IMG/VR virus record: IMGVR_UViG_3300034062_007170
Span: 1-33,920 of that record
DNA length: 33,920 bases
Origin: a virus
Direction: 5' to 3' (one strand)
The notes beneath the pieces were generated by a model, which ran no database searches, was not told the origin of the DNA, and worked only from the letters and a program-made list of their open reading frames with translations. Each line of letters opens with the position of its first letter. Position 1 is the first letter of the stretch. Both the position numbers and the translations under genes were made by a program. Below are positions 2,303-32,991 of the stretch, one piece after another.

Positions 2303-2359
2303 TTTATTGCTGTTTAAAGCTTCCGCCAGAAAATATTTATTTGTATTAGCCTCTTGACT

Positions 2360-2749
2360 ATGAAGACATCTGATAAATGGGTAAGAAACATAAAGGCTCT
2401 TGAGCAGTTCGTTTCAGAGAATGGCCACGCACGAGTTCCGGCGGCAGCAAAAATAGAGGTCGAGGGTAATCGCATCGCTCTTGGCTCCTGGGTCAGCTAC
2501 CTTCGTGTCAAACACAAGAGCGGGACTCTAGCTGTTGAAAAGCGCGCACAGCTTGAATCATTTCCATCATGGACATGGGGCCCATGTAAGCCAGGTCCCC
2601 TAGGAGATGCAGCTCGAGACCAAGCAATGTTGCAAGCAAGAGAACAAGGCAGAAGCTTGCAATCAATAGCAGATGAATACGGACTCTCACGTCAGCGCGT
2701 TCATCAAATCCTTGAGCGAATCACCAAGAAAGAAAAGCAGCTTGCCTAA
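2360..2749 (+). CDS. Helicase-associated (HA) domain plus sigma-like HTH protein
   Basis: 129 aa. Residues about 4-75 (DKWVRNIKALEQFVSENGHARVP, then LGSWVSYLRVKHKSGTL) match the helicase-associated domain, a small helical nucleic-acid-binding module normally found appended to helicases. Residues about 85-125 (GRSLQSIADEYGLSRQRVHQILERI) are a helix-turn-helix of sigma-70 region 4 type. The pairing suggests a stand-alone DNA-binding or transcription factor. ATG is preferred over the upstream TTG. TAGCCT lies 7 bases upstream and there is no Shine-Dalgarno, so the mRNA is probably leaderless. Confidence 0.75.
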   Translation: MKTSDKWVRNIKALEQFVSENGHARVPAAAKIEVEGNRIALGSWVSYLRVKHKSGTLAVEKRAQLESFPSWTWGPCKPGPLGDAARDQAMLQAREQGRSLQSIADEYGLSRQRVHQILERITKKEKQLA

Positions 2750-2963
2750 TCAGAACAAGTCAGCTGGTTACCTCGCGCTAGCGGGGCTACTGGGATGGTT
2801 GTTCTCAAGCTCAGTTCTTGGCGTAAACCTTTGGGCTGGCCTTTTAGTTCTTCGACACTACGAAGTCATTGACACAATCATCCCTTACAGGGCGTGTTTC
2901 ATCTTGATGGCACTTGTTGTTTCAGCACGGCTTTACGACAAAGCTATAACAAAAGATAAGTAG
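2673..2963 (+). CDS. Small membrane protein
   Basis: Up to 96 aa with two hydrophobic segments (GYLALAGLLGWLFSSSVLG and IIPYRACFILMALVV). It overlaps the preceding gene by 77 bases if the ATG at 2673 is used. A TTG at 2742 would give only an 8-base overlap and remove a low-complexity N-terminus, and may be the true start. Function unknown. Confidence 0.6.
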   Translation: MNTDSHVSAFIKSLSESPRKKSSLPNQNKSAGYLALAGLLGWLFSSSVLGVNLWAGLLVLRHYEVIDTIIPYRACFILMALVVSARLYDKAITKDK

Positions 2964-2966
2964 CGT

Positions 2967-2998
2967 CTTCCGCCACCGTCAATAAGTTAGGACGACGG
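2967..2998 (+). repeat. Interspersed repeat copy 3
   Basis: CTTCCGCCACCGTCAATAAG, then a GACGACGG that can pair with the core CCGTC. It lies between convergent genes and overlaps the stop codon of the 44-aa gene, as copy 1 overlaps the 52-aa gene. Confidence 0.7.
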
Positions 2999-3121
2999 AA
3001 TTTCCAGTTTCAGGATTGCTGAGGCCACTGCGTGTAGAAGCGTTTCCGGGTCTCTGTTTTTGACTACTTCACGCATCTGTTCTTTTACTTGTTCAGCTTT
3101 TTGTGGTGTCATGTCATCCAT
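2987..3121 (-). CDS. 44-aa hypothetical protein
   Basis: Begins MDDMTPQKAEQVKEQMREVV and ends in KLEIPSS. AGGAG lies 8 bases before the ATG, and the start overlaps the previous gene by 8 bases. Amphipathic and helical. It is the last gene of the vWA/AAA+ operon. Function unknown. Confidence 0.65.
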   Translation of the reverse strand: MDDMTPQKAEQVKEQMREVVKNRDPETLLHAVASAILKLEIPSS

Positions 3122-3287
3122 TTTGCTTCTCCTCTAACAGCGTGATGAATTCGGTTTGCTCTGCAATATGACGCAAGCGAACACGGTGCGCAACTTTCTC
3201 ATGTTCTCTCAACACATACTTGATGAAAGACCAAATCAAAATCCATGTAGGGATTGCTACTAGCAGCACTTCTGCACTTGTATTCAT
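3114..3287 (-). CDS. 57-aa single-pass membrane protein
   Basis: Begins MNTSAEVLLVAIPTWILIWS, a hydrophobic anchor, followed by a basic cytoplasmic-type helix (EHEKVAHRVRLRHIAEQTEF). AAGGA lies just upstream of the ATG. It sits 9 bases after the vWA gene and overlaps the 44-aa gene by 8 bases, so it belongs to the same operon. Confidence 0.65.
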   Translation of the reverse strand: MNTSAEVLLVAIPTWILIWSFIKYVLREHEKVAHRVRLRHIAEQTEFITLLEEKQNG

Positions 3288-3296
3288 TTCATTCCT

Positions 3297-4781
3297 TTAC
3301 TTGAGATACAGGTCGTGTCCTGTGCGGTTCCAATATGCTTCTTGAAGCTGATAAGGGACTGTGCTTGTGACCTTTTTGCCTTTCTGAAGGTCTCGAAGCA
3401 TCTCAATAGCTGTGTCCACATCAGGCACAACAAAGATGCCGTTCTTTTTACAGATAGAGATACAAGACATGGTGAGTGATTGGTTGTATTCATCACCTTT
3501 ACCGGTCACGCCGCCATCGGAAACCCAAATGATTGGTTCTTTCAGGTTTTTACGTTGCGAGATAGCCCATTCCAAAGCCGGCCCATCCATACCATTTCCC
3601 ATATTGGGTTCTGGCAACCTATCCACCATTTTGCCTTTTTTGGCGATGACATAGAGATTGGGTCTTGTTCTGTCGCCACCCGAGTATTGAGCAACAATCG
3701 CATTCGGAGCGTTCACAACAATTTCTCGTACCTGATGGTCATAAAGTGACATCGAGCCACTTGTGTCAATCAAGACGACACCACCTTCACCTTTGCTTAC
3801 ACGGTCAAAGATACGTCGTTCTGGGTCTGAGTAAAGACGGGTGATGCGACGTGGATTTTTACCAGTGTGAGTTGCTTTTCGTTTTCTGCTAATCGCACCC
3901 ATCACACCTCGTGTGAGCATCGGTGTTGAAACTTTCAGCTTCTCCCACGCATCTTCAATGCCTTTATCAGAAGCAGTATTACCATTCCGACACTCAATGC
4001 TGGACAAAAGACCATCGGAAGCATCATTGATGCGAGTGACTGTCTTTTTTGATGATGCGTCGTCATGCTGGCTTTTTTGTAGCTCTGATGGTTTTTCTTC
4101 ACTGGCCTCAACGACTTCGTCAATCCACTGCGCGAGAGTTTCAGTGAAACCGAAACCATGTTTAGAAGCGCGAGTTTTATGCGTCTTCGTATATTCCTTT
4201 GCGATTTCAGTATTCAAGATTTGGTCAAAAAATCGCGCTGCCTCTGTGACGATTGGTCTGATGTTTTGACACCATTCTGGTCGCGCTTGACTGAGAGTGA
4301 AGAAGTATGGGTAGAACTCTGCTGTTCGAGCGTACTTCACTGCCTGGATGACAGCGTCCCTAAATGTTCCGTGTTCGCCGATGCGCTTTCCAACGAAAGC
4401 ACCACTGCCATCTTGGATATACATCTCTGGGTCAAACCCGATTGACATCATGTAAGAGTGAACACGTAACTCCTCGCAAGCAATAAGCGATTGAGTTGAT
4501 GCGTAACCTCGCTTCAACCACAAATCATTCATTTGCTTTTCGCTGGGAGAAAGCTTTGCGTGAACCATCTCATGGGTTTGGATATGTCTTGCCACTTCAT
4601 CTGAACCAACTGGAATGGAAAGAACTTTTTCATCAACAACAGCAAATGGACTACCCGAATAGATAGTCCACTTGCCTGATTGTTGGTCTTGGCGAGACAG
4701 AATTTCTGGCTCTGGTACGAGAAAGTTTTGCGTACTTACGCTTACCTTCTCGCCCGCATCAACACCCGAAATGATGTCCAT
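3297..4781 (-). CDS. vWA-domain protein with HExxH motif (CobT/VWA-metallopeptidase-like)
   Basis: 494 aa. Residues 66-80 read HIQTHEMVHAKLSPS: HEMVH is an HExxH zinc-metallopeptidase motif, with ACEELRVHSY (101-110) a plausible third-ligand helix. Residues 334-430 form a von Willebrand A domain with a MIDAS motif DTSGSMS (339-345) and a later WVSDGG. The region 230-330 is low complexity and basic. It is translationally coupled (TAATG, one-base overlap) to the AAA+ gene upstream, the standard arrangement of MoxR/vWA and CobS/CobT chaperone-type systems. The AAA+ protein probably remodels a target through the vWA protein. Whether the HExxH site is catalytic is open. Confidence 0.8.
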   Translation of the reverse strand: MDIISGVDAGEKVSVSTQNFLVPEPEILSRQDQQSGKWTIYSGSPFAVVDEKVLSIPVGSDEVARHIQTHEMVHAKLSPSEKQMNDLWLKRGYASTQSLIACEELRVHSYMMSIGFDPEMYIQDGSGAFVGKRIGEHGTFRDAVIQAVKYARTAEFYPYFFTLSQARPEWCQNIRPIVTEAARFFDQILNTEIAKEYTKTHKTRASKHGFGFTETLAQWIDEVVEASEEKPSELQKSQHDDASSKKTVTRINDASDGLLSSIECRNGNTASDKGIEDAWEKLKVSTPMLTRGVMGAISRKRKATHTGKNPRRITRLYSDPERRIFDRVSKGEGGVVLIDTSGSMSLYDHQVREIVVNAPNAIVAQYSGGDRTRPNLYVIAKKGKMVDRLPEPNMGNGMDGPALEWAISQRKNLKEPIIWVSDGGVTGKGDEYNQSLTMSCISICKKNGIFVVPDVDTAIEMLRDLQKGKKVTSTVPYQLQEAYWNRTGHDLYLK

Positions 4782-5509
4782 TACTTTCCTGCTTCAACCT
4801 TGAGAGCATCAAGAATGGACTTTGCTCGCGCGTTGAACACCATCTCAGCTGCTGTCTTTTCATCCAATGCTGAACGCAGCTTGTCAAACGCATACCAAGA
4901 GCGCAAAGAAACACGACGCTCGCCAGCATCACACATCTGCTTCGCTGGGTTACGCAAGTCCTCGCTCAAGCGCGCAAGCGCGTTGGGATGCGGTTCGTTG
5001 ATACGAATGCAAACAGGGAAACGGTCTTTCAGCGCGATTGGCAAATCTTCCATTCGTTCGATGTTCGTTGTCATGACGACACTGAAACCATCCAATGGGA
5101 TTACCTTTTCATTTGTTTCTGGGTTTTGCCATTCAGCACTTTCTGGGCTGTCTGTGATTGCAAGAAGCGCGGCAAAAACATCTCCACCAGCTTTGTCAAT
5201 CTCGTCTACAACCAGCCGGCCACCAACTGTTCCGTTTCCGCGCCATGCGAGAATTCCTGAGCCTTCGTTCCAAGAGAGGCTTCCGTCTTTCGTTGGCTTC
5301 CACATTCCAGTTACTTCTGCGGTAGTCATGTCGTCTGTGCAAGCAAGACGGTGCGCGCCACCTTCAATGTTTCCAAGCTTCATGCCTGCGTATGTTTTTC
5401 CAATTCCCGGCGCGCCGTACAGAACAACACGGTCAATCCCTGCGAGCAGAGCGTTTTCGAGTGTCTGCCAGCACTTTGGCAAGTTGGATGTTTTCTTTGT
5501 CTTAGTCAT
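4781..5509 (-). CDS. CobS/MoxR-like AAA+ ATPase
   Basis: 242 aa. Walker A GAPGIGKT (32-39), Walker B LVVDEID (99-105), sensor-1 region VVMTTN (144-149), and an arginine-finger-like ALKDRF (159-164). It is a single AAA+ core without extra domains, like phage CobS-type ATPases and MoxR proteins. The start has AAGGGGA upstream. It is the first gene of the leftward operon with the vWA protein. Cobaltochelatase subunit CobS is one possible relative; MoxR-type chaperones are the other. Confidence 0.85.
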   Translation of the reverse strand: MTKTKKTSNLPKCWQTLENALLAGIDRVVLYGAPGIGKTYAGMKLGNIEGGAHRLACTDDMTTAEVTGMWKPTKDGSLSWNEGSGILAWRGNGTVGGRLVVDEIDKAGGDVFAALLAITDSPESAEWQNPETNEKVIPLDGFSVVMTTNIERMEDLPIALKDRFPVCIRINEPHPNALARLSEDLRNPAKQMCDAGERRVSLRSWYAFDKLRSALDEKTAAEMVFNARAKSILDALKVEAGK

Positions 5510-5579
5510 TTTCGTCCCCTTATAGGTGTAGGTAATTTGATGTTAGTTACTTTTTAGATGAGTTACAAGTGAGGGCAGG

Positions 5580-5612
5580 CACTTCCCCTGCCCACCCTCA
5601 CAGGATTATCAG
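5580..5612 (-). terminator. Stem-loop after the 133-aa gene
   Basis: Minus-strand GGGCAGG and CCTGCCC arms around a 7-base loop, extended by GTGAG/CTCAC with a bulge. It lies at the end of the 5609-6010 gene. There is no U-run, so termination may be inefficient or factor-assisted. Confidence 0.5.
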
Positions 5613-6010
5613 GAAGCTTGAGCGACGCTCTGCTTCTTAGCTTTTGCCTCTGCTGAGATTGGTGTAACACGAACCTGCGAGTACGGAGTGACGGTAGCAA
5701 CCGTTGCGGCGACCTGCTCGTCAATAAGACCCATCTTGATTGCGCTATCCATCAAGTCATTTTCCACGACCAACTTAGTGACCTTCTTGAGGACTGTTGG
5801 CTTGACCATTTGGGCAAGTGTTTCTGCATCGTAGGAGACACGGGTTGCCTCTACGATTTTGATGAGAACACCATCAACGGTGAAGTTGTCAAGGCCAACT
5901 TGAGCGAGTTCCTGACGGAGTTCTGCTTCTGCGGCTTTCTTCGCCTTTGTGGCTTCTGCTTCTGCTTGTTTGAGTGCCAGATATTTCTGGGCGGTTGAGT
6001 GAAGTGCCAT
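5609..6010 (-). CDS. Hypothetical protein with Ala/Lys coiled coil
   Basis: 133 aa. The N-terminal 45 residues are an Ala/Glu/Lys coiled coil (QKYLALKQAEAEATKAKKAA); the rest is mixed (VDGVLIKIVEATRVSYDAE, then a Val/Thr-rich part). The start is set by AAGGA 7 bases upstream. It is transcribed from a strong TTGACA-17-TAGGTT promoter next to a 20-bp palindrome, so it is probably regulated. No family recognised. Confidence 0.75.
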   Translation of the reverse strand: MALHSTAQKYLALKQAEAEATKAKKAAEAELRQELAQVGLDNFTVDGVLIKIVEATRVSYDAETLAQMVKPTVLKKVTKLVVENDLMDSAIKMGLIDEQVAATVATVTPYSQVRVTPISAEAKAKKQSVAQAS

Positions 6011-6051
6011 CGGTTTTCCTTCTTTCTGTAGTGGTTGTGATTGGCACTTGT

Positions 6052-6080
6052 AACCTACAGGGGACACAATGGAATGTCAA
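6052..6080 (-). promoter_or_regulatory. Promoter for the 133-aa gene
   Basis: Minus-strand TTGACA (6075-6080), 17-base spacer, TAGGTT (6052-6057). A palindrome lies 6 bases upstream of the -35. Confidence 0.75.
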
Positions 6081-6083
6081 GCT

Positions 6084-6242
6084 TTATTCGGATAAATCTT
6101 TCCGAAATCTTTGTGGCGTTCGACACAAGTATTTGGCCGTCTGTTTACGCCTATCCATAAAGCGGGCAGCACGAAGACGGAAGCCATCAGCAAAAAGCTG
6201 AGCTTCCTCATCAGACCACCGGGCTCGAATTTTTCGTTTCAC
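6084..6242 (-). CDS. 52-aa basic protein, Myb/SANT-like start
   Basis: GTG-initiated frame beginning MKRKIRARWSDEEAQLFADG, then Arg-rich (FRLRAARFMDRRKQTAKYL). RARWSDEEAQLF resembles the first helix of Myb/SANT-type DNA-binding domains, but only one helix is clear. TAAACT lies exactly 6 bases before the GTG and no Shine-Dalgarno is present, which fits a leaderless mRNA. Its stop overlaps the palindrome that abuts the next promoter. Confidence 0.55.
   Translation of the reverse strand: MKRKIRARWSDEEAQLFADGFRLRAARFMDRRKQTAKYLCRTPQRFRKDLSE
6087..6106. promoter_or_regulatory. 20-bp palindrome, copy 1 (operator candidate)
   Basis: TTCGGATAAATCTTTCCGAA with perfect six-base arms. The same site recurs at 33690 and 33784. 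It adjoins the -35 of the 6052-6080 promoter. Confidence 0.6.
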
Positions 6243-6259
6243 GCAGCTAGTTTACTGCT

Positions 6260-6316
6260 CATCCACCACCGTCACAAGAAGAAGTCCCGTTTCCCGCGCT
6301 CGTGGCGGGGCTTCTG
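6260..6316 (+). repeat. Interspersed repeat copy 4
   Basis: CATCCACCACCGTCAC, then AGTCCCG and a closing GGCGGGGCTTCTGG that can pair with it. It lies between the divergent 6242 (minus) and 6498 (plus) genes. Confidence 0.7.
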
Positions 6317-6430
6317 GGTGGAAACAGCCGGCAGCTGCCGGGCTCGATGCCGCCGCTGGCATCAACTTCCTGAGACAAACCCACCTTCTCAGTCCGTGTA
6401 CCGTGTGTGACGCTTGACCGTCTAGGAAAC

Positions 6431-6459
6431 TTGACTTTCTCGTTTGCGACCTGTACCTT
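6431..6459 (+). promoter_or_regulatory. Promoter for the 6498 gene
   Basis: TTGACT, 17-base spacer, TACCTT. A second TTGACC lies 18 bases upstream. Confidence 0.7.
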
Positions 6460-6497
6460 GTACTTGTCACATACACCTATCCCGAAGGGGGACTGAA

Positions 6498-6956
6498 ATG
6501 ACCACATTGGTAGAGCAGGTTCGAGACCTGTTCATTACGATTGGCGCAGAGAGGGGCGACGAGAACAACAAACTCGGCAAAGCCCTTTTCTACTCAATCA
6601 AGAAAGACGGAACATACAGACTGGTTGCCGCCGCTGGAGATGTTTACGAAGGATTGGAAAATCTTCCGTTACACGTTTCATTGTCGGACACCGATGCGGC
6701 GATTGCCGTTGAGACAACTGGCTGGTGTGCGCCGATTGACAACAGCAAATCAGACGATGACCAAATCTTGCCTTCTGAACACCCTGAGCGTCGTCGTGTT
6801 CGTCTGATGTCACTCGTAACTCGCACTTACAAGAGTGCTAGTGCGATGGGCTTCGCAGATGAGGACGAAGTCATTACAGATGATGGTTCAGCTCGTGGAA
6901 CGCTCGCAGAAGCGTTGCTTGACACGATGAAAGTGCTGGTCAGCAAGACCAACTAG
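6498..6956 (+). CDS. Hypothetical cassette protein
   Basis: 152 aa, starting MTTLVEQVRDLFITIGAERG. The start is set by GGGGGA upstream; the longer frame to 6444 lies in the promoter. The protein has a beta-rich centre and a segment EHPERRRVRLMSLVTRTY. It faintly resembles the 194-aa protein at 8684 in layout (an acidic N-terminal helix, then a GVxxDG-type sheet), but this is weak. Flanked by its own promoter and terminator. Confidence 0.75.
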   Translation: MTTLVEQVRDLFITIGAERGDENNKLGKALFYSIKKDGTYRLVAAAGDVYEGLENLPLHVSLSDTDAAIAVETTGWCAPIDNSKSDDDQILPSEHPERRRVRLMSLVTRTYKSASAMGFADEDEVITDDGSARGTLAEALLDTMKVLVSKTN

Positions 6957-6981
6957 CCGCACAACTGAACGGCTTCAGAAA

Positions 6982-7012
6982 GACCCCTTGCCTTCGGGCA
7001 GGGGGTTTTTTT
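6982..7012 (+). terminator. Rho-independent terminator
   Basis: CCCCTTGCC and GGCAGGGGG arms around a TTCG loop, followed by seven T. Confidence 0.9.
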
Positions 7013-7028
7013 GTGTACCCACTCAGGT

Positions 7029-7080: not shown

Positions 7081-7171
7081 GTTCTGTTCTAGCAGCTGCA
7101 TTCGATGCCGGGTCAAACCGGCCACGTATTTGCCGGCCTCAAAACTTTTTCAGATTTCTTGTGATTTGTAC

Positions 7172-7200: not shown

Positions 7201-7231
7201 AAACGGCACACACCTAGAGAAGGGAAAAACA

Positions 7232-9421: not shown

Positions 9422-9450
9422 TTGACTTTGGGGCGCGTATGGGTCATACT
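9422..9450 (+). promoter_or_regulatory. Promoter giving a probable leaderless mRNA
   Basis: TTGACT, 17-base spacer, CATACT. The ATG of the 134-aa gene follows 6 bases after the -10. Confidence 0.75.
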
Positions 9451-9456: not shown

Positions 9457-9861
9457 ATGATACCTACACACTATAAAGACATCAGTCAATGGGACGGAGA
9501 GTTGTCAAACTCTTGCGCCTGCAGCAGCTACAACGAGACAACTGGAGAATTCGACAACTCCGACATTTGCCATGGAGATTGTTGGGACGACCAACTGGAA
9601 GTCTTCGGAGAGTCCGTCAAAGAATTCTTCGACGGCAACGAAAACAAAGAATGGCAAGTAGACGGACTCCCATTGTGGGAGCGCAAAGTCTCCGGCCGAT
9701 TCAGTGCAACCAAAGTTTCCGACTTCGTACAGGGAATCACCGTTCGTGGAGATTGGCACTTGTTCTACAAGTTGGATGGCGACACTCTGCGAGTTCGTCT
9801 CTCTCACCACGACGTCCCAACCGGCGGCGTATTCACCGTGAGTTACGCCGAGGAAGAATAA
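9457..9861 (+). CDS. Cys-rich hypothetical protein
   Basis: 134 aa starting MIPTHYKDISQWDGELSNSC. A longer frame from 9439 would begin inside the -10 region, so 9457 is chosen. The N-terminal third has four Cys (NSCACSS, ICHGDCWDD) that could bind metal. The rest is beta-rich (DWHLFYKLDGDTLRVRLSHH). It is followed without a gap by the 66-aa gene. Confidence 0.75.
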   Translation: MIPTHYKDISQWDGELSNSCACSSYNETTGEFDNSDICHGDCWDDQLEVFGESVKEFFDGNENKEWQVDGLPLWERKVSGRFSATKVSDFVQGITVRGDWHLFYKLDGDTLRVRLSHHDVPTGGVFTVSYAEEE

Positions 9862-10123: not shown

Positions 10124-10173
10124 CATCCGCCACCGCTGCCACAAGACGCTTGCGTCCGGGCGAAAGCCCCGTT
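10124..10173 (+). repeat. Interspersed repeat copy 8
   Basis: CATCCGCCACCGCTGCCACA, hairpin GACG-CTTG-CGTC, hairpin GGGC-GAAA-GCCC, then CCGTT. Here the repeat supplies the -35 (TTGCGT) of the next promoter. Confidence 0.85.
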
Positions 10174-10178
10174 ATATT
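10150..10178 (+). promoter_or_regulatory. Promoter built into repeat copy 8
   Basis: TTGCGT inside the repeat, 17-base spacer, TATATT; ATG follows after 6 bases. Confidence 0.6.
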
Positions 10179-11011: not shown

Positions 11012-11071
11012 GCATGCACTGTACAGAGCACATCGATGAAAAGCAAATATGCTGCAAATTTTCCTGGCCCT

Positions 11072-12276: not shown

Positions 12277-12306
12277 TTGACACCTGCAGTGCTTGTTCTG
12301 TACAGT
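12277..12306 (+). promoter_or_regulatory. Promoter giving a probable leaderless mRNA
   Basis: TTGACA, 18-base spacer, TACAGT; ATG follows 7 bases later. Confidence 0.75.
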
Positions 12307-12630: not shown

Positions 12631-12659
12631 TTGCAATTAATACCTACAACATATAAGGT
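12631..12659 (+). promoter_or_regulatory. Promoter giving a probable leaderless mRNA
   Basis: TTGCAA, 17-base spacer, TAAGGT; ATG follows 6 bases later. Confidence 0.6.
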
Positions 12660-13443: not shown

Positions 13444-13472
13444 ACAAGACGCCACATAGATACACTAAAAGC

Positions 13473-15410: not shown

Positions 15411-15428
15411 CATGGTTATCATAAAAAC

Positions 15429-16834: not shown

Positions 16835-16911
16835 GTTTATGATTATACACAATCAATATCGGCTAATTAAAGGTGCGCCGCAGTTGCATCTCTTAGTTGT
16901 ATGCTGCTACC

Positions 16912-19857: not shown

Positions 19858-19954
19858 AGAACTGCGGAGGCATCTTCAAGTCCGGTCAGAGTAAAGATGT
19901 TCTTGCGCATTGGTCACATTCTACACACATGCTTCTACCTGATAGAGTGAACCT

Positions 19955-20980
19955 ATGGCGCATGAGTTAGAAATAGTTAATGGCAAAGCAAACATGGCTT
20001 ATGCCACTGGCGGGGATAGAAAGATTCCTTGGCATCGTTTAGGCACCCCGATGAAGGGCCTTCAGACGATGGATGCGATGCTCGAAGCCGCCAATGCAGA
20101 CTTTGATGTAGTTATTTCTAAAGTAGCTGCAGTTGACGCGGAGGGCAATTTGCTCAAGAACTCTGATGGCTCAATTGTCATCATTGAAGATAGCCGAGCA
20201 ACACTGCGTCATAACCCTGATGGCAGTTTTAACGCGCTAGCTACTGTAGGTACACGTTACGAAGTTCGTCAGAATCGTGAAGTGCTTGAAAGAGCTCTTG
20301 CTGTAGTTGGAGCATCGAGTGGTGATGCTGTTATGGATACGGTTGGGATATTAAAAGATGGACGTCGGTTCTTCGCTACGATTGAGCTTGACACGTTAAT
20401 CCTTGACCCAAGTGGCGTTAATGACAAGATTGCTAGATACTTGGTTGTTAGTTGCGGTCATGATGGTATCTGGCCAATCAGATATGCAAATACTGATGTG
20501 CGCGCAGTGTGCAATAACACTGTAGTGATGGGCTTGTCAAGCGCTCAACGCGTGTTTACTGCAAGGCACACACGCAACGTTGACACCGTTATGGAAGACG
20601 CACAGCGCGTACTAGAGATTTCAACAGCCTGGGGTCAGGCATTCTCTCGCGAAGCTGAACGAATGCTCTCAATCAACATCCCCAATGGCAGCTTGAAGAT
20701 TGACAAAGTCCTTGAGAAGGTTTTCCCAGCAGAATCAGGGGAAACAGCTAGACAAAAGAAAAATCGTGATGAAGTTCACACCATGATTCGCAGTCTTTAC
20801 CTGAATGACAAAAACGCTGGTAAATACGGGTTTAATGGATGGTCTCTTTACAATGCGATTGTTGAATACATTGACCACTATAGGTCTGATGACCCAACTG
20901 CTGGAGCGATAGCAGCAATGGACGAAAATTCATTTGGTACACAAAAAAAGATTGTTGCTCATAAAGCGGTGGTATCATGA
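19955..20980 (+). CDS. DUF932 / phage-plasmid-like protein (TIGR03299)
   Basis: 341 aa. Typical opening MAHELEIVNGKANMAYATGG with PWHRLGTPM soon after, and a later CNNTVVMGL block, as in the DUF932 family. The family is common in phages and plasmids; its role is not settled. TAGAGT lies 6 bases before the ATG, without a Shine-Dalgarno. It is followed after 4 bases by the next gene. Confidence 0.9.
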   Translation: MAHELEIVNGKANMAYATGGDRKIPWHRLGTPMKGLQTMDAMLEAANADFDVVISKVAAVDAEGNLLKNSDGSIVIIEDSRATLRHNPDGSFNALATVGTRYEVRQNREVLERALAVVGASSGDAVMDTVGILKDGRRFFATIELDTLILDPSGVNDKIARYLVVSCGHDGIWPIRYANTDVRAVCNNTVVMGLSSAQRVFTARHTRNVDTVMEDAQRVLEISTAWGQAFSREAERMLSINIPNGSLKIDKVLEKVFPAESGETARQKKNRDEVHTMIRSLYLNDKNAGKYGFNGWSLYNAIVEYIDHYRSDDPTAGAIAAMDENSFGTQKKIVAHKAVVS

Positions 20981-20984: not shown

Positions 20985-21452
20985 ATGTCCGATTCGATGA
21001 ACTCACCAGACTGGGATGACGACGAGCCGATATTCATTGACGACGAAGATTTTGAAGGTGATTCACTAAGTCTTGATGAGCTAAAAAAAGAAATATTCCA
21101 AGACAAGGTAATTCACGGTTTTGTGCAAGAAGCATTTCAATTTAATGGCCGCGAAGCAATTAATGAAATACTCAGTGAAATTGAACGTAAAATGGGCTGG
21201 AAGCTTGAAATCATTGCCACTCGTGGAAGCATTGAGGACGCAGTCCTTGAGCGCACAAACACTTTTGATGAAGACGCATGGATTAGATTTTTAATGTCTG
21301 ACGTGTATGACCGAATGTCATACAGGGTCATCTATGAAAGCGAACTAGCTGTTGATGAGTTCATGGATGATAGTTACGAGAGCCTTAGTTTGGGGGCTCG
21401 TGCCCGTAGATATATCAAGAAAACAGTCTGGAATCTTTTCCAAAATATCTAG
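20985..21452 (+). CDS. Acidic hypothetical protein
   Basis: 155 aa beginning MSDSMNSPDWDDDEPIFIDD. The N-terminal 35 residues are extremely acidic; the rest is helical. The longer frame to 20934 overlaps DUF932 and is rejected: TATCAT lies 6 bases before this ATG. The acidic N-terminus could mimic DNA, but there is no direct evidence. Confidence 0.75.
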   Translation: MSDSMNSPDWDDDEPIFIDDEDFEGDSLSLDELKKEIFQDKVIHGFVQEAFQFNGREAINEILSEIERKMGWKLEIIATRGSIEDAVLERTNTFDEDAWIRFLMSDVYDRMSYRVIYESELAVDEFMDDSYESLSLGARARRYIKKTVWNLFQNI

Positions 21453-21520: not shown

Positions 21521-21868
21521 ATGTCAGATTACAGTGATGTTGATATTCCAATTGTTCCGAGGCTCAAAAGCTCATGCAAAGGAATGCCGGTTGAATGGTG
21601 GTTCCCGGAGCACCCACCAACATCAGAGCAGAGCTTCAATGCGGCTCGAGCGGTTGAAGTTTGTAAAACATGTGTTGATATTGAGGCGTGCGGAGAGTTT
21701 GCTATCCAGAACCCAAGGGTGATTGGTATTTGGGGTGGAATGTCTTGGAAGCAGAGACAGAGGATTCGTGTGGTGAGAGAGAGAAACGCTACTTTTAGCC
21801 GAATTGAAGAAGAGAAACAAAAGCAACGTGCAATCGCTAGTGAATTGAAAGTACGGCAGGCGCAATGA
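21521..21868 (+). CDS. whiB: WhiB-family transcription factor
   Basis: 115 aa. SCKGMPVEWWFPE at the front, then VCKTCVDIEACGEFA, then IGIWGGMSWKQRQRI. The four Cys (19, 48, 51, 57) that hold the 4Fe-4S cluster are in the standard spacing, and the GIWGG turn with the basic tail is intact. WhiB proteins bind the primary sigma factor and redirect transcription, and phage versions can override the host copy. GGGGGG lies before the start. It overlaps the primase-helicase gene by 4 bases (ATGA). Confidence 0.95.
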   Translation: MSDYSDVDIPIVPRLKSSCKGMPVEWWFPEHPPTSEQSFNAARAVEVCKTCVDIEACGEFAIQNPRVIGIWGGMSWKQRQRIRVVRERNATFSRIEEEKQKQRAIASELKVRQAQ

Positions 21869-23646
21869 TTTCTCGTGCTGTAGATGATTTTCTCGGTCGC
21901 CTTGATGGCGTGAAGCCTGCTGGTGATAATCAATGGTCTGCTCGTTGCCCGTGTAGAAACGATGACCAAAATCCTTCTCTTAGTATTTCTCAAGCCAAAG
22001 ACACTGGTGATGTGCTTGTTACTTGCCACAGGGGAAACGGTTGTGACACGAATCAAATTTGTGATGCGCTTGGAATGAAAGTTGGGAAGCTTTTCAATAA
22101 AGCTCACGAGGGTGGATGGAGCGACACGCCGAAGAAGTACAAGGAGAGCGTTTTGCCACAAGTGCAGAAAAAGTCCACGCGAAAGCTTGTTGCTACTTAT
22201 AAGTTCCGTGACGAAAACGGAACACTCATGTATGAGAAGTTGCGATATGTTGACGAAAATGGGAAGAAGTCTTTTGGCCATCGCCGTCCAGACCCAGACA
22301 TGCCTGGTGAATACATATATGACGCTAAAGGCGTACAAAAGATTCTTTACCGACTGCCAGAAGTATTAAAGGCTATTGAAGACGGTGAACCTGTATGGCT
22401 TGTTGAGGGTGAAAAAGACGTTGATACTCTCGTGGCTAAGTACGGCGTATGCGCGACAACAATGTCTAGCGGTGCTGGCCACTGGGAGTCAGAATATTCG
22501 CAAGTTCTTTCGGGGGCAACTGTTCTTGAGATTGTTGCAGACAATGACGATGCTGGTAAAACGCATGCAATGAGTGTTGCTGCCCAAGTACGTGCACTTG
22601 GCGGCAATGTCAACGTATGGGTTTCTCCTCATGGCAAGGACATCACAGACCACATTAATGCTGGATATCAGCCAGATGAACTTAGCGAACTTGATTACGA
22701 GATTCCGCAACAATCCGCAGAGCTTGAGTCAGAAGAGGAAGAGTCTGTCGGAGAAAGAATTCTTGATGTTGTAACTTCTGTTGTTTCTAATGGCGATTTG
22801 AGCCTTGAGCAAATGCTCAATCGTGTAAGCGTAATGCTTAGCTCGATGTCACAGAATTCTGACGATGACACTGGTCGTTTGTACAACTGGCAGAAGTTCT
22901 TAGAGGACTACAAGGACAGAGGATACGAGTGGATTATTCCGGGCTTGCTAGAGAAGCAGGAGCGCGTGATTGTTGTAGCAGCCGAAGGCGTCGGTAAAAC
23001 AATGCTCGCTAGGCAAGTGGCCATTTGCTCTGCTGCTGGAATCCACCCATTCACATTTCAGCCAATGGAACCAATCACAACCCTGATGATTGACCTTGAG
23101 AACCCAGAGCGCATTATTCAGAGAACATCTAATAACATCATGCGCGAAGCACTGAAGATGGGTAAGACAAAACAGTTAGACGCGCATCTTTACATCCAGC
23201 CAGCAGGTTTAGACCTGACTAGCTCTAAGGACAGAGCGCTTGTTGAGCGTTTGTGCCAAGAGATTAAACCGCAATTGATAGTCATGGGACCTTTGTATAA
23301 GGCTTATGTAGATAATGGCAATAAAACAAGCGAAGCTCTTGCTGTAGAGGTTGCAAAGTTCTTGGACAGAATTCGCGATGTGTACGGTTGCGCCTTGTGG
23401 CTTGAGCACCACGCTCCACTCGGTTCAACCTCATCAAGTCGCGAACTAAGGCCTTTTGGTTCATCTGTATGGTCACGTTGGCCAGAGTTTGGTATTTCTC
23501 TCACTCCAGACCCAATGGCTCTTGATGGGTACGTTTATCAAGTCAATCACTTCCGTGGTGCCCGCGATAACAGAGCATGGCCAATCAGAATGAAGAGAGC
23601 CGTAAGGTTCCCATTTGAGACATTAGAATTCATGAAAATGAACTAA
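21865..23646 (+). CDS. Bifunctional primase-helicase (zinc/TOPRIM plus RepA-like ATPase)
   Basis: 593 aa. N-terminal zinc-binding region with Cys28, Cys30, Cys54 and Cys60 (RCPCRNDDQNPSLSI, CHRGNGC). TOPRIM core: WLVEGEKDVDTL (about 176-187) and VADNDDAGKTHA. The C-terminal half is a RecA-like hexameric helicase/RepA domain with Walker A AAEGVGKT (about 372-379), MIDLENPER and LIVMGPLYK. It most likely primes and unwinds DNA at the phage fork. Co-transcribed with whiB. Confidence 0.92.
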   Translation: MISRAVDDFLGRLDGVKPAGDNQWSARCPCRNDDQNPSLSISQAKDTGDVLVTCHRGNGCDTNQICDALGMKVGKLFNKAHEGGWSDTPKKYKESVLPQVQKKSTRKLVATYKFRDENGTLMYEKLRYVDENGKKSFGHRRPDPDMPGEYIYDAKGVQKILYRLPEVLKAIEDGEPVWLVEGEKDVDTLVAKYGVCATTMSSGAGHWESEYSQVLSGATVLEIVADNDDAGKTHAMSVAAQVRALGGNVNVWVSPHGKDITDHINAGYQPDELSELDYEIPQQSAELESEEEESVGERILDVVTSVVSNGDLSLEQMLNRVSVMLSSMSQNSDDDTGRLYNWQKFLEDYKDRGYEWIIPGLLEKQERVIVVAAEGVGKTMLARQVAICSAAGIHPFTFQPMEPITTLMIDLENPERIIQRTSNNIMREALKMGKTKQLDAHLYIQPAGLDLTSSKDRALVERLCQEIKPQLIVMGPLYKAYVDNGNKTSEALAVEVAKFLDRIRDVYGCALWLEHHAPLGSTSSSRELRPFGSSVWSRWPEFGISLTPDPMALDGYVYQVNHFRGARDNRAWPIRMKRAVRFPFETLEFMKMN

Positions 23647-23655
23647 TCTAGAAGT

Positions 23656-24454: not shown

Positions 24455-24776
24455 GCAGAACGAAATGACGTCTGACAACATTGAAGCCGCAATGGATAAA
24501 GTCGCTGAGAACATCTCAATGGGCAGGCGCTCGAATACTGGCTCAAAACCTGGTGAACCAGCACAGAAACAGGTCATTGTCCGCACGTCTGAACGCAACC
24601 ATGACAGATGGAAGCAGGCAGCTGAAATTCAGGGTGTTTCCTTGGCTGAGTTCATTAGGGCATTAGCTGATGCAGAATCGGCTAGGCTGCTTGAATGTAC
24701 GCATCCAAAGCAGTTCATTGTTAGCTATCCATGGATGACAAAGTGCAAGAAGTGCGGAGAGCGCTTAGACCAGTAG
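24387..24776 (+). CDS. Ribbon-helix-helix and zinc-knuckle protein
   Basis: 129 aa from ATG 24387, which has AAGGA 9 bases upstream; ATG 24447 (109 aa) would shorten the overlap to 8 bases and is also likely. The segment QVIVRTSERNHDRWKQAAEI with GVSLAEFIRALADAE is a ribbon-helix-helix type. ECTHPKQF and CKKCGERL make a CxxH/CxxC zinc site at the end. Probably a DNA-binding regulator. Confidence 0.75.
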   Translation: MNLNESWNNAILKVKASLSHMNEQNEMTSDNIEAAMDKVAENISMGRRSNTGSKPGEPAQKQVIVRTSERNHDRWKQAAEIQGVSLAEFIRALADAESARLLECTHPKQFIVSYPWMTKCKKCGERLDQ

Positions 24777-24785
24777 ACTGCCGTC

Positions 24786-27181: not shown

Positions 27182-27210
27182 AGCATAACAGGGCTGCTAC
27201 GCTATTGCAA
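27182..27210 (-). promoter_or_regulatory. Promoter for ssb
   Basis: Minus-strand TTGCAA (27205-27210), 17-base spacer, TATGCT (27182-27187). It overlaps the TACGCT (27198-27203) of the divergent 27210 gene. Confidence 0.65.
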
Positions 27211-28280: not shown

Positions 28281-28828
28281 TACTGTTGTGTGCTTGGCGT
28301 GTCTATGAGACGAACAATTTCTTTAGCAGAACGCTTGCAAACATTTACTGACCACATTCCATCAGTGAACATTGGAGCGATTCTTTCTGTATCATTTCCA
28401 TATAGGAACATTGTTCTTCCCCAGTTGGCTTCACCTAATGGCTGCCCTCTGAGAGCGCAATCAACGTAATTGATTCCAGCGCTAAGCAACTTTGAGGCCA
28501 AAGCCTGCTCTTCTGCTTCATTGGTAATTGAGTTTGCATCAACGTATACACCTTTGAACCCGTGCAAGATTGCCAGTTCAGCACCAACGTCATAAATACC
28601 GTTCGTCCCAATGCAGAAAATCACATCAGACTTATTGAACAGTCTTTCATTTGTTTCTGCATCCTGAAACCCAAGGTTCTCTGCATGCTTACGAGTCCCA
28701 TCAGAACGACCTTCGCTTGAATAAATCACACGATGTCCACTCTTACCAAGAGAACGGCCAATAGTCCTACCCATCTTCCCGGGTGAGAATATTCCTACTG
28801 TTTGTGCAGGCATATAAATACCGTGCAC
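28280..28828 (-). CDS. Truncated 6PGDH / 3-hydroxyisobutyrate dehydrogenase-like Rossmann protein
   Basis: 182 aa. TVGIFSPGKMGRTIGRSLGK is a Rossmann dinucleotide loop of the 6-phosphogluconate / 3-hydroxyisobutyrate dehydrogenase family (GxxxMG). DVIFCIGTNGIYDVGAEL, YVDANSITNEAEEQ and NYVDCALRGQP match later N-domain blocks. The family normally has a further helical C-terminal domain of about 110 residues, which is absent. GTG overlaps the thioredoxin stop by one base; ATG five codons on is an alternative. Substrate unknown. Confidence 0.75.
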   Translation of the reverse strand: MHGIYMPAQTVGIFSPGKMGRTIGRSLGKSGHRVIYSSEGRSDGTRKHAENLGFQDAETNERLFNKSDVIFCIGTNGIYDVGAELAILHGFKGVYVDANSITNEAEEQALASKLLSAGINYVDCALRGQPLGEANWGRTMFLYGNDTERIAPMFTDGMWSVNVCKRSAKEIVRLIDTPSTQQ

Positions 28829-29148
28829 TACTTCATGTACTCGGTGAGTTCACCCGCAAGCTTTTCTGCATTACGCGCACCAACAAGTGTCTTTACTACT
28901 TCCCCACCATCAAATACGAGAATCGTGGGGATGCTGAATACATTGAACACACCTGCAATTTCTGGGTATTCATCGACGTTTACTTTGCCAATTGCAAAGT
29001 GTTGAGAATGAGCCATATCAAAGGTTTCAAACTCTGGGGCCATGGTCTTGCATGGTCCACACCATGGCGCCCAGAAGTCAACGATTACGGTCTTCTCGGA
29101 GTCGTAGAGAAACGACTCAAGGTTCTTGTCTGTAATTTCAGCAATCAT
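28828..29148 (-). CDS. trxA: Thioredoxin
   Basis: 106 aa. VIVDFWAPWCGPCKTMAPEF holds active-site WCGPC (29-33), with FSIPTILVFDGGE containing the cis-Pro. Normal thioredoxin length. It is downstream of the class II reductase and likely re-reduces it. The frame is open to 29469, but TACGAT lies 6 bases before this ATG, so it can be transcribed alone. Confidence 0.95.
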   Translation of the reverse strand: MIAEITDKNLESFLYDSEKTVIVDFWAPWCGPCKTMAPEFETFDMAHSQHFAIGKVNVDEYPEIAGVFNVFSIPTILVFDGGEVVKTLVGARNAEKLAGELTEYMK

Positions 29149-29152
29149 GTTT

Positions 29153-31078
29153 CTATCGTACAGGACAAGCGCCCGTAGAGCAGTTGTCCAAATCAAGCAT
29201 GTCTGAAGGAGCTGAATGCATAGGCACCGAGAAGTCAATCTTGCCGAGAGTCTTCTGGTATTCCTCTTTAGTGATTTCCTCGTATGGAGGCAGTGGGAAG
29301 TTGTGGTCACTGTGGAGAAGGAACGACACAGACTTAACGCCCTTGTCGTAGTTCTTGGACAACCACTCACGAATTGAGTCAAGCTCTTCCTTCCGGTAGT
29401 AGACGGTAACAGAGACGGCGTTGTCTGCCCATACGGTCTGCATCTTCTTAACCCATTCAAGCTGGTCAACTGCAGTCATGTTGGCTGCAAGAACAGCGCC
29501 TTCTGGTGATTCGCATGGGAATTCAACTACATACTTGGTGTGGTCTTCACGGCCGTCAATTCCGATGTCCCAAACAACCTTGTAGCCACGTTTGCGACAA
29601 GCGTCAACAAGTGGGTCTGCTGCACCGAATCGCACCCGTCGGATGTAGTACTGAGCGAAGCCAGGATGGATGCCTGGTGTATTCCCTGGAAGCAATGCCA
29701 GCGTGCCTGAAGGCTGAACTGTCGTCAAACGAACCGATGTTGGCCAACCATTCTGCTTTGACCATTCTTCATCAAATTCGCGCAAGGACACATAAGCTGC
29801 ATCAAGCCATTCAATCTTTTCTGCTGGCACCTGCAAGATACCCGTGATGCTTTGACCGAGGCGAGCGTTCTTGCGAACAATGTTCGTGGTTTTTTCATAA
29901 GGGTAGTCAAGTCTGGTGATTTGTTTTTGAATCTTGTACAAAAGAATTGAGATTTCCTTTAGTTGTTCAAGTGACTCAACGTTAGGAAGGAAGATTGTTG
30001 AAAGGTTGCATGACTCTCCGTCTGCAAGCGCAATTTCTGCACAAGGGTTGAAGCCCTCAATGGTGTAGTCAGGGCGTCTGTCACCGAGACGACCGTATGT
30101 GCGTGCAAGCTTGCGGTTAACAAGACCGTATGGTTCGCCTGAGCCGTCGTAGCCCTTCCAGAGTTCTGTCATGATTTCTTCGTATGCATCTGCATAGATG
30201 GAGTTGTTGGAGTTGGCACGCCATGCTGGGACACTACCCGTGGACCAGTTCTTTGCTCGAATGAAAAGAACATCGTCTGGGTCGCCAATGGCAATCTGTG
30301 CTGAACGACGCGAAGAACCAGAGACAACGATGCGACCAATGATGTTGCAGATGTCAAGCACATCAATTGAGCGAAGCTTCTTGCCTTCACGATTCTGCAT
30401 TACCTTTGAAATATCTGCGATGCCTTCAATGAGTGCGCCTGGACCTGATGCGGTGCCACCGAATGTCTTGAGTGGTGCACCGAATTCGCGAATAAGAATC
30501 GTGGAGTATGAGAAAGACTTACCCGTGTCAAAGTATGACTTCAAAACTGCATGCAAGAGACGCTTCCAGCCTTGACGTGAGTCAGGGACAATGATGTCTG
30601 CATCGTTGGAACGTTCGTGTGTGATTGTGACTCCTGCTTTAACTTTTGGAAGTTCGTGAATCTTGGAGCGTTCAACAGAGAAGCCAACACCGCCACCAAG
30701 CATTAGGTATTCGAACAGCAGTTCAAAGTCTTCAATCTTTTCAATGTTGGTGAAGTAGCAGTTGTTCAATGATGTTGCGTTGAACTTCTTTACGAGTGGT
30801 GTTCCAAGCTGCCAAAGGGCACGACCTGAAAGCGAGCAGCGAAGGTTGAACATGTGGTCAAACAGCTTCTCTGCCTCTTCTTGTGTCAGGCATGTGCCGA
30901 TTTCTGCTGCGCCATTGATTGCCCGTGTGATGGTCTCGGTCCAAGTCTCGTTGCGACCGAGTTCTTCAATTGGACGGCTGTAGGTGCGTAGGTAAACAAC
31001 TTCGCCAAGTCCACCAAAACCCCAAGGTGTTTGTTTGTTTGCGTATGTTGCGATGAATTCCGGGGTAAGCAGTGCCAT
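29153..31078 (-). CDS. nrdJ: Class II (adenosylcobalamin) ribonucleoside-triphosphate reductase
   Basis: 641 aa, of the monomeric class II type. LNNCYF with Cys107 and SCNLS with Cys357 form the reducible pair; NPCAEI with Cys346 is the thiyl-radical loop. GRALWQLGT and LGGGVGFS match the family, and the C-terminal CSTGACPVR (Cys633, Cys638) is the shuttle pair that thioredoxin reduces. It makes dNTPs for phage replication and needs coenzyme B12. It heads the RNR-Trx-dehydrogenase block. Confidence 0.95.
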   Translation of the reverse strand: MALLTPEFIATYANKQTPWGFGGLGEVVYLRTYSRPIEELGRNETWTETITRAINGAAEIGTCLTQEEAEKLFDHMFNLRCSLSGRALWQLGTPLVKKFNATSLNNCYFTNIEKIEDFELLFEYLMLGGGVGFSVERSKIHELPKVKAGVTITHERSNDADIIVPDSRQGWKRLLHAVLKSYFDTGKSFSYSTILIREFGAPLKTFGGTASGPGALIEGIADISKVMQNREGKKLRSIDVLDICNIIGRIVVSGSSRRSAQIAIGDPDDVLFIRAKNWSTGSVPAWRANSNNSIYADAYEEIMTELWKGYDGSGEPYGLVNRKLARTYGRLGDRRPDYTIEGFNPCAEIALADGESCNLSTIFLPNVESLEQLKEISILLYKIQKQITRLDYPYEKTTNIVRKNARLGQSITGILQVPAEKIEWLDAAYVSLREFDEEWSKQNGWPTSVRLTTVQPSGTLALLPGNTPGIHPGFAQYYIRRVRFGAADPLVDACRKRGYKVVWDIGIDGREDHTKYVVEFPCESPEGAVLAANMTAVDQLEWVKKMQTVWADNAVSVTVYYRKEELDSIREWLSKNYDKGVKSVSFLLHSDHNFPLPPYEEITKEEYQKTLGKIDFSVPMHSAPSDMLDLDNCSTGACPVR

Positions 31079-31146
31079 GTTCGTTCTTTCTTGTTTGTAG
31101 GGATTATGGGAATGACAATTGTATCGATGTCAAAAAAACGATGCGT

Positions 31147-31452
31147 CTAGTTGATTCCTAGTTCGCTTGCTTTCTGGATTGATATGTATTGCCCCTTCTT
31201 GGCTGCAAGAACTCTTGCAGTTGCATATGGTGATATTTGCTTGTCAACATACACGTCTTCTTTGACTAACACAAGTTGAGTGGTGTCAACATTTTCAATA
31301 TTCGTGTCAGCGAAAGCTATGAACGGTTCTTCAACATGTTCTGGCTTACAGTCACCCGTAGTGTGTCCACAGACCAAGCATGGTTGTCTATCGGCTTTGA
31401 CTAAGCGATATTCGCCAAATAGGTAGTTATCTGAGCGAAATATATCTGACAT
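31147..31452 (-). CDS. Small zinc-binding protein
   Basis: 101 aa. QPCLVCGHTTGDCKPEHVEE (24-43) gives CxxC and a downstream C/H, a zinc knuckle. The rest is mixed (TTQLVLVKEDVYVDKQ). Leaderless layout: TACAAT 6 bases before ATG, with TTGCAA 16 bases upstream. Divergent from the winged-helix gene. Function unknown. Confidence 0.8.
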   Translation of the reverse strand: MSDIFRSDNYLFGEYRLVKADRQPCLVCGHTTGDCKPEHVEEPFIAFADTNIENVDTTQLVLVKEDVYVDKQISPYATARVLAAKKGQYISIQKASELGIN

Positions 31453-31458
31453 AAAGGA

Positions 31459-31486
31459 ATTGTATCAAAGTTGTCATTTTTTGCAA
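31459..31486 (-). promoter_or_regulatory. Leftward promoter of an overlapping divergent pair
   Basis: Minus-strand TTGCAA (31481-31486), 16-base spacer, TACAAT (31459-31464). Confidence 0.65.
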
Positions 31487-31499
31487 AGCTCGCTAGATT
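31471..31499 (+). promoter_or_regulatory. Rightward promoter of an overlapping divergent pair
   Basis: TTGTCA, 17-base spacer, TAGATT; ATG follows 6 bases later. It overlaps the leftward promoter by 16 bases. Confidence 0.7.
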
Positions 31500-31505
31500 G
31501 TTGAC

Positions 31506-31838
31506 ATGTCAAATTTCAGGATTAAAGATATATCTCGAATGAAAGAGTTTCAGTCGGTTTCCTTCATCAAGCGTGGTAGTACGCTGACTCGCTCAATCCT
31601 GTGTTACGCCAAGATGAAAAAGAAACCCATTGCACCCGTGAGCATTGTGAGGATGTTTAGTTCAAAGTGTCGCAGACCTTATGACGCAAGAGAGGTCATG
31701 AAGACGCTTGAGGGTAGGGGTATGCTGCGTCGTGTTGACGCTGACACTTGGGAGATTACTCCACTAGGTATTGAAGCCGTCTACTTGCTAGGCAAGAGAG
31801 ACGAAGAATACGTTGGCGGTGACTTCTCTAGTTTCTAA
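31506..31838 (+). CDS. Winged-helix-like protein
   Basis: 110 aa. SILCYAKMKKKPIAPVSIVR, then YDAREVMKTLEGRGMLRRVD and TWEITPLGIEAVYLL: helix-turn-helix followed by a wing and a last helix. Probably a DNA-binding regulator. Leaderless. Its end overlaps the histone-like gene by 11 bases, tail to tail. Confidence 0.8.
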   Translation: MSNFRIKDISRMKEFQSVSFIKRGSTLTRSILCYAKMKKKPIAPVSIVRMFSSKCRRPYDAREVMKTLEGRGMLRRVDADTWEITPLGIEAVYLLGKRDEEYVGGDFSSF

Positions 31839-32082
31839 ACCAAGCGAGAATTCGCTTGCGCAATGACTTGTTCTTCACGTCATTTGCGTACACAACAATA
31901 CCTGGAGCGTTGTCCTGTGGTGCTGATGTAGTTCCAACTGCAGAGACTTCTGTATCGATTGATACTTTGACTTGCTCTGTCTTTGGTGCAACCTTCTTAG
32001 GTGCAGCTTTCTTAGGGGCTGCCTTCTTTGGGGCTGCCTTCTTTGCTGAAGCTTTCTTAACTGGTTTCTTTTTCGTTGCCAT
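31828..32082 (-). CDS. Histone-H1-like Lys/Ala/Pro protein
   Basis: 84 aa. The first 35 residues are MATKKKPVKKASAKK followed by repeats of AAPKK, as in H1 C-terminal tails and bacterial nucleoid proteins. The rest is acidic to neutral with a basic end (NKSLRKRILAWFRN). It likely binds DNA without sequence specificity. The frame runs to 32268, but TAGTGT lies 7 bases before this ATG, which is taken as the start. Confidence 0.8.
   Translation of the reverse strand: MATKKKPVKKASAKKAAPKKAAPKKAAPKKVAPKTEQVKVSIDTEVSAVGTTSAPQDNAPGIVVYANDVKNKSLRKRILAWFRN
31988..32060 (-). repeat. Tandem 15-bp repeat encoding AAPKK
   Basis: About five imperfect 15-base units; the two central units are identical (GCTGCCTTCTTTGGG type). 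Such a tract can vary in copy number. Confidence 0.75.
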
Positions 32083-32146
32083 GCTTGACACACTAGTCCA
32101 CCCGTGTTGATTCTGGCGGAAGTAGTCAATCGAGATAGTGTTGCTT

Positions 32147-32773
32147 GTGGAGATATCCGACTTCAAAGAACGTATTGACAAGGTTGGATTGGCTCTGATG
32201 TCCACTGTTGAAGCCAAAGAACAGTCAGTCAAAGACGAAGGCATAGGCGAAGACCTGTCAATCAACATGTTCTGCTGGGAGCAAGACAGACTGGCGCTAA
32301 TGCTTCAAGCACGACCCTCTGTGCAGTATGCGAGCATAGACGAACGCTTTGACGCTATAACGAAGGTGGCCTGCATAGTGAGGCGAGGCTGGGGTATAAC
32401 AGCCTTCTCAATGGCATCTGAAGGGTACATAAGCCTCAAACCAGATGAGACAAAATGGTCAAGCCTAAAGCAAGCATTCATTGATGGCAAGGCAGTTAAA
32501 GAGTGTTTGACTGTCACACATGTTGAGAACAACAGAGTAACCATTGTTGCAAGGCCCTACTCTTACACAGTTCCAAGAAAAGTAGTTTGGGATGACGACA
32601 TCTACTATCCAGGCAGAACACTAGTAAGAGACCAAGATGGCATGTATGCCAACATGTTTGACAGAGTGCTTACATCAGTTGATGCAGAGGAACCACCTGA
32701 AGACTACAACACGTTCTATGACGAAATAAGTAGTGGTGTATTAGAGCTAGGGTTCTATATACAACAGTTCTAG
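32147..32773 (+). CDS. Hypothetical protein
   Basis: 208 aa if GTG 32147 is the start (TAGTGT ends 5 bases upstream); GTG 32138 gives 211 aa. The protein contains MFCWEQDRLALMLQARPSVQ, AFSMASEGYISLKP and ARPYSYTVPRKVVWDDD. No recognised family. Divergent from the histone-like gene. Confidence 0.75.
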   Translation: MEISDFKERIDKVGLALMSTVEAKEQSVKDEGIGEDLSINMFCWEQDRLALMLQARPSVQYASIDERFDAITKVACIVRRGWGITAFSMASEGYISLKPDETKWSSLKQAFIDGKAVKECLTVTHVENNRVTIVARPYSYTVPRKVVWDDDIYYPGRTLVRDQDGMYANMFDRVLTSVDAEEPPEDYNTFYDEISSGVLELGFYIQQF

Positions 32774-32991
32774 TTACCCGTGGAGCTCCAACGCAAATTC
32801 TTCGCTCTGCGAATAGCGTTACGTTCAAGCCTTTGAGAACGTTCTGGTTCAGGTAACTGAAGGATAGCCTCAACACGTTTACGGTTCTTGCGTTCACGTT
32901 CATACTCTCTACGATGAGCTCTCTTAGCAGGAGTGTCCTCGCGATGAGCACGTTGCCACTCTCTCTGTGCTTCAGGGTTCTTGTATGGCAT
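32770..32991 (-). CDS. Small very basic protein
   Basis: 73 aa beginning MPYKNPEAQREWQRAHREDT, then long Arg/Lys helices (RREYERERKNRKRVEAI). The MPYK(N/D)PE opening is common at the front of phage HNH-type proteins, but no HNH motif follows. TACTAT lies 6 bases before the ATG; the longer frame to 33180 is rejected. Confidence 0.7.
   Translation of the reverse strand: MPYKNPEAQREWQRAHREDTPAKRAHRREYERERKNRKRVEAILQLPEPERSQRLERNAIRRAKNLRWSSTGN

Follow-up and report, generated by a model that had tools for sequence, protein, structure and literature searches.

The window analysed here, a stretch of 33,920 bases, is the full length of IMG/VR record IMGVR_UViG_3300034062_007170. A nucleotide search against deposited phages returned matches in its tRNA genes only and otherwise no near relatives. 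Its genes include an SNF2-type helicase, a C5 methyltransferase, a PAPS-reductase-like protein, a DUF932 protein, a primase/helicase, ParB, a class II ribonucleotide reductase, SSB, thioredoxin and, at 21521, a WhiB-like regulator. Because related contigs reach 128-160 kb, the window is probably a piece of a larger phage. WhiB was present in 20/20 related records and in one of 14 control genomes (Corynebacterium glutamicum), which is strong, if indirect, evidence for an actinobacterial host of the phage group. A scan with the ribonucleotide reductase also returned relatives L057 (54% identity) and L058 (76%) on contigs labelled TM6 and Alphaproteobacteria; L058, at 3.3 kb, may be misbinned phage DNA.

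The original prediction held that more than 20 genes of the window carry a TANNNT hexamer ending 5 to 7 bases, and mostly exactly 6, before an ATG or GTG. Inspected individually, 21 of the 22 listed sites bore this out, 16 of them with a spacing of 6, four with 7 (2360, 12314 and, on the minus strand, 16834 and 32082) and one with 5 (32147). The other site, 9457, had been listed as CATACT, correctly, and hence is not TANNNT. The sites are as follows.

2347..2352, plus strand: TAGCCT, 7 bases to ATG 2360; TANNNT at 6 in two distant orthologues
9445..9450, plus strand: CATACT (not TANNNT), 6 bases to ATG 9457; not kept in orthologues
10173..10178, plus strand: TATATT, 6 bases to ATG 10185
12301..12306, plus strand: TACAGT, 7 bases to ATG 12314
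12654..12659, plus strand: TAAGGT, 6 bases to ATG 12666
13461..13466, plus strand: TACACT, 6 bases to GTG 13473 of the SNF2-type helicase; TANNNT at 5-7 in 12/19 distinct orthologue upstreams
15417..15422, plus strand: TATCAT, 6 bases to ATG 15429; orthologues 3/3
16900..16905, plus strand: TATGCT, 6 bases to ATG 16912 of the C5 cytosine methyltransferase; orthologues 4/4, two with a GTG start
19943..19948, plus strand: TAGAGT, 6 bases to ATG 19955 of the DUF932 protein; 13/30 orthologue upstreams, the others gaining an SD-bearing short leader
20970..20978, plus strand: TGGTATCAT, extended -10 formed by the last DUF932 codons and the T of the TGA stop, 6 bases to ATG 20985
23644..23649, plus strand: TAATCT, its TAA being the primase/helicase stop, 6 bases to ATG 23656
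24774..24779, plus strand: TAGACT, whose TAG ends the preceding gene, 6 bases to ATG 24786
27198..27203, plus strand: TACGCT, 6 bases to ATG 27210; orthologues 6/7, down to 31% identity
31494..31499, plus strand: TAGATT, 6 bases to ATG 31506; 7/8 at 5-7
32136..32141, plus strand: TAGTGT, 5 bases to GTG 32147; 20/22 orthologue upstreams at 5-7
6249..6254, minus strand: TAAACT, 6 bases to GTG 6242 of a 52-aa ORF that is weak or doubtful as a gene
11018..11023, minus strand: TACAGT, 6 bases to ATG 11011
16842..16847, minus strand: TATAAT, 7 bases to ATG 16834, glutathione-peroxidase-like
29155..29160, minus strand: TACGAT, its last T being the T of the ribonucleotide reductase TAG stop, 6 bases to ATG 29148 of thioredoxin
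31459..31464, minus strand: TACAAT, 6 bases to ATG 31452; 14/17 distinct orthologue upstreams at exactly 6
32090..32095, minus strand: TAGTGT, 7 bases to ATG 32082
32998..33003, minus strand: TACTAT, 6 bases to ATG 32991

The boxes at 11018-11023 (minus) and 12301-12306 (plus) are contained in a near-palindrome, TGTACAGTGCA, that might be an operator. The minus-strand gene starting at 32082 contains four 15-base tandem units at 31980-32059.

To avoid circularity in the choice of start codons, genes were called blind to promoters, from codon usage alone, giving 49 starts in the window. TANNNT preceded 8 of these at a spacing of 6 and 12 at spacings of 5 to 7, with almost none elsewhere. Dinucleotide shuffles of the same upstream regions yielded a mean of 0.74 and a maximum of 5 in 2000 at spacing 6, and a mean of 2.2 and a maximum of 9 in 2000 at 5 to 7. 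Other ATG and GTG triplets, used as decoys (n=2209), had TANNNT at spacing 6 in 0.9% of cases. Chance or base composition as the source of the motif was rejected on the strength of the shuffles, the decoy triplets and the other spacings. We also computed a background-corrected net share, for which alternative starts were allowed and the same search at decoy spacings was subtracted; this came to 27% of the genes in the window. An artefact of start choice was likewise rejected, given the codon-usage-only caller and the 27% that remains after subtraction. An SD-like sequence was found at about 17 of the 49 starts instead, chiefly within 6.4-9.9 kb. The layout is thus common in the window and not universal, and its original description as genome-wide was too strong.

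We then measured the same spacing in about 100 related contigs, drawn by scans with the DUF932 and primase proteins. Among their 717 non-redundant starts, TANNNT occurred 104 times at spacing 6, 29 times at 7 and about 9 times at each other spacing; the peak at 6 has a P of about 1e-72, although the starts are homologous and so not fully independent. Further viral contigs bearing WhiB, from which starts already counted were left out, gave 61 at spacing 6 and 16 at 7 among 418 starts, against about 5 at background. The net share ranged over 9-46% for the window together with the contigs that the DUF932 scan had brought in; for more distant contigs, obtained through the primase alone, it was 4-18%. 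Nine cultured phages (six of Actinobacteria, P23-45, a Salinibacter phage and T4) reached a net share of 6% or less by the same measure. Two of these, Racecar (6/62) and Gaia (4/83), show small peaks at spacing 6, so the mode extends beyond this phage group.

Aligning the spacing-6 set on the start codon allowed us to describe the element beyond T(-12), A(-11) and T(-7), the only positions imposed by the way the set was chosen. An A stands at -8 in 53% of the set and a G at -14 in 47%. TG at -15/-14 was found in 23%, versus 4-6% of other starts, and a pyrimidine at -1 in 75%, versus 37-46% in others. At least 4/6 matches to a -35 (TTGACA) were seen at 35% of spacing-6 sites and at 12-14% of other starts, a weak signal peaking at 17 bp. 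Both TG and a -35 match of at least 4/6 were absent from 53 of the 104 sites. To describe the promoters as -10-only is partly an overstatement, given the 35% with a -35 match. Compensation between the TG and -35 signals was looked for in vain, and the idea was rejected. The predicted lack of a Shine-Dalgarno sequence at boxed starts proved close to a mutual exclusion: in the relatives, 6 of 133 box-bearing starts have an SD-like sequence, compared with 220 of the other 584. Boxes were also missing from TTG starts: none of the 66 TTG starts in the 717-start set carries one, and none of the 61 spacing-6 starts in the WhiB-bearing set is a TTG. The motif, its spacing, the upstream G or TG, the -35 signal, the -1 pyrimidine, the SD exclusion and the absence of TTG are marks of a sigma-70-type promoter whose +1 would fall on the start codon. 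They include what characterises leaderless sigma-A genes in Actinobacteria, namely TANNNT at a fixed distance above background, no SD, and ATG or GTG only.

Comparison of orthologous starts showed TANNNT kept at the same distance while the flanks diverged. At 20985 the box was found at 5-7 in 15/15 distinct orthologue upstreams; at 9457 and in several other orthologue sets the element was not kept. In some orthologues of 19955 and 23656 a short SD leader has replaced the box, which indicates that leaderless and SD modes interchange, as has been reported among related bacteria (PMC3160421). At the start of the DUF932 gene in L009, L011 and L056, orthologues of 19955, a TAGAGT-like box is kept and a short AAGGAG leader precedes the start, an apparent switch from leaderless to SD-led initiation.

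The original prediction also stated that several boxes overlap the stop codon of the previous gene, which holds for four listed sites (20985, 23656, 24786 and, on the minus strand, 29148), and that genes within a co-directional run thereby gain private promoters, for which the support is strongest at 20985. There the box, TG-n-TA-nnn-T, consists of the last three DUF932 codons and the T of the stop. In relatives the DUF932 gene ends in GTG followed by GTA, CTA, ATA or TTA, one codon that varies and a TGA, TAG or TAA stop, and TGnTAnnnT at the junction with the next gene is the same in 35 distinct relatives. A Val codon tolerates any third base, yet this one reads GTG in 35/35 of these relatives, which had been kept by the motif before the codons were counted, with five left out; among the other 70 conserved fourfold columns of DUF932, the most uniform reaches 0.69 and the median is 0.43. 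All five omitted relatives differ at the C-terminus and lack a gene start within the next few bases, which means that a synonymous change at the Val position was in no case the reason for omission. In two of them (L042 and L046) the comparable Val-Leu pair has CTC or GTT and the motif is broken. Selection on promoter bases inside coding sequence, as looked for in a promoter of the recX/recA type, was found at the DUF932 junction, the one site that this comparison covered.

In a second register the box opens with the TAA or TAG stop of the upstream gene, which stands 9 bases ahead of the following ATG (23656, 24786). Non-redundant spacing-6 junctions, excluding the DUF932 type, numbered 10 at distance 9, and no other distance between 0 and 20 had more than 4; the choice of starts in this set was tilted towards the motif. 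When starts were called blind, the box was present at 6 of 9 junctions of distance 9. Registers 4 and 9 are jointly enriched in the motif-leaning set (P = 0.0003), mostly owing to 9. Our literature searches, which covered open-access papers, turned up no report of stop-codon sharing by promoters.

We consider it highly probable that these hexamers serve as -10 elements in promoters read by host sigma-A and that the resulting messages are leaderless. The motif and its spacing, the SD exclusion, the restriction to ATG and GTG with no TTG, and the conservation in orthologues are present in the DNA itself; together with the -1 pyrimidine and the TG and -35 signals they support this reading, which the original prediction had advanced, and from them we infer the transcription start sites, the use of host sigma-A and the translation of leaderless messages. 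The -10 would be positioned to make the A of ATG or the initial G of GTG the first transcribed base, and such promoters would serve between about a quarter and a third of the genes in the window, with many others relying on Shine-Dalgarno sequences. Since no leader would be needed, there would be room for the promoter at the end of the preceding gene, in its final codons or its stop codon, and some genes inside co-directional runs could then be transcribed on their own. Points against the reading are the orthologue sets, that of 9457 among them, in which the element is lost, the turn to SD leaders in some orthologues of 19955 and 23656, and the lack of compensation between TG and -35. A sigma factor of the phage's own, as expected of phage sigma-factor-directed promoters, was provisionally rejected as driver: Sigma70_r2 had no match in 20 records, four of 128-160 kb included, though the records may be fragments.

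If the genes were co-transcribed from upstream promoters and their translation coupled (termination-reinitiation), TANNNT would be incidental, arising from stop codons and from the AT richness of junctions. TAA and TAG stops do supply a TA, and 43 of the 104 starts with a box at spacing 6 follow a co-directional gene at a distance of no more than 40 bases; however, 40 of the 104 have no such gene directly upstream, others are far from one, and stop codons leave the -1 pyrimidine, the -35 and the TG unexplained. The synonymous sites (GTG, NTA) fixed at the DUF932 junction also argue against a by-product, as does the lack of the junction motif in relatives with a different C-terminus and no nearby downstream start. 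Co-transcription with coupled translation may add to expression at close junctions, but as an account of the boxes we regard it as very improbable. We give similarly little credence to true -10 boxes whose usual transcription start lies a few bases ahead of the start codon, producing very short leaders without SD. Spacing 7 is indeed present (29 of 717 starts) and the choice of start site may shift by a base or two, but the peak at 6 is sharp, TTG starts are missing and the -1 pyrimidine/+1 purine signature sits at the start codon itself. Sequence alone cannot separate initiation a base or two upstream from exact leaderless initiation.

A phage factor, such as the WhiB-like protein at 21521, might redirect host RNA polymerase to -10-only sites as one temporal class, which would add to leaderless sigma-A promoters and not replace them. 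WhiB in 20/20 records with a sigma factor in none, the 53/104 sites that lack both TG and a -35 match of at least 4/6, and the sparing of extended -10 promoters by gp39 of P23-45 (PMC7403470) are all consistent with such a factor. It is nevertheless unlikely: host promoters in Actinobacteria are active with TANNNT in the absence of a -35 (PMC3898074) and require no such factor.

Leaderless genes with TANNNT are established in Actinobacteria and Deinococcus-Thermus (Zheng 2011 PMC3160421; Cortes 2013 PMC3898074; Shell 2015 PMC4633059; PMC12340547), and those described here resemble them in the distance of about 6 bases from the start, the weak or missing -35, the use of ATG and GTG only, the lack of SD and the -1 pyrimidine; they differ in belonging to a phage group. 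In mycobacteria, leaderless initiation occurs only with ATG or GTG at +1, and C is preferred at -1 (PMC4633059). TANNNT promoters without a -35 consensus are known in M. tuberculosis (PMC3898074), where 7% carry the TG extension, in contrast to 23% of our spacing-6 sites. The recX promoter inside recA of M. tuberculosis likewise lies in the end of the upstream gene, with +1 at the A of the next ATG (PMC3062782). However, that is a single case not kept in all mycobacteria, whereas the junction here is kept to about 63% identity and its -10 includes a stop-codon base. Among actinophages, Cluster O mycobacteriophages (Corndog, for example) have predicted SigA-like promoters with +1 on the start codon (PMC4351075), three per genome as opposed to about 20 in 34 kb here, repeated across relatives. 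The middle and late (extended -10) promoters of Thermus phage P23-45 also use the host polymerase with little need of a -35 (PMC7403470), but by positional count the start-adjacent layout is not the same there, the 50 kb examined showing no such peak (2/75 at spacing 6-7).

The leaderless mechanism (Mycobacterium, Streptomyces, Deinococcus) and the recX-in-recA promoter are thus already known; new here are the density in this phage group (net 4-46%) and the repeated sharing of stop codons. These findings extend the actinobacterial leaderless mode to a large phage group, in which it is denser than in the cultured phages tested. They also provide an easy way to correct gene starts in many contigs of uncultivated actinophages, as SD-based callers will miss leaderless starts, and the gene-end promoters offer a clean natural test of single-gene transcription within a run. 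More speculatively, and rather improbably in our view, gene order in this aquatic actinophage lineage may evolve by units, each with its own leaderless promoter whose box is fused to the prior stop in one of two fixed registers (last T, or TA), so that the genes of a run would be expressed independently, with the phage WhiB perhaps tuning the host polymerase to the boxes.

Possibly the most unusual feature of the window is a repeat, TCATCCGCCACCGTCrCAACAAGA, often followed by AGCCCCGTA. It has ten intergenic copies, all on the plus strand, at 564, 2969, 6262, 7031, 8533, 9275, 10126, 11074, 11850 and 13214. Its 11-base core is exact in 39 of 176 fetched loci, many of them overlapping, and again on the plus strand only.
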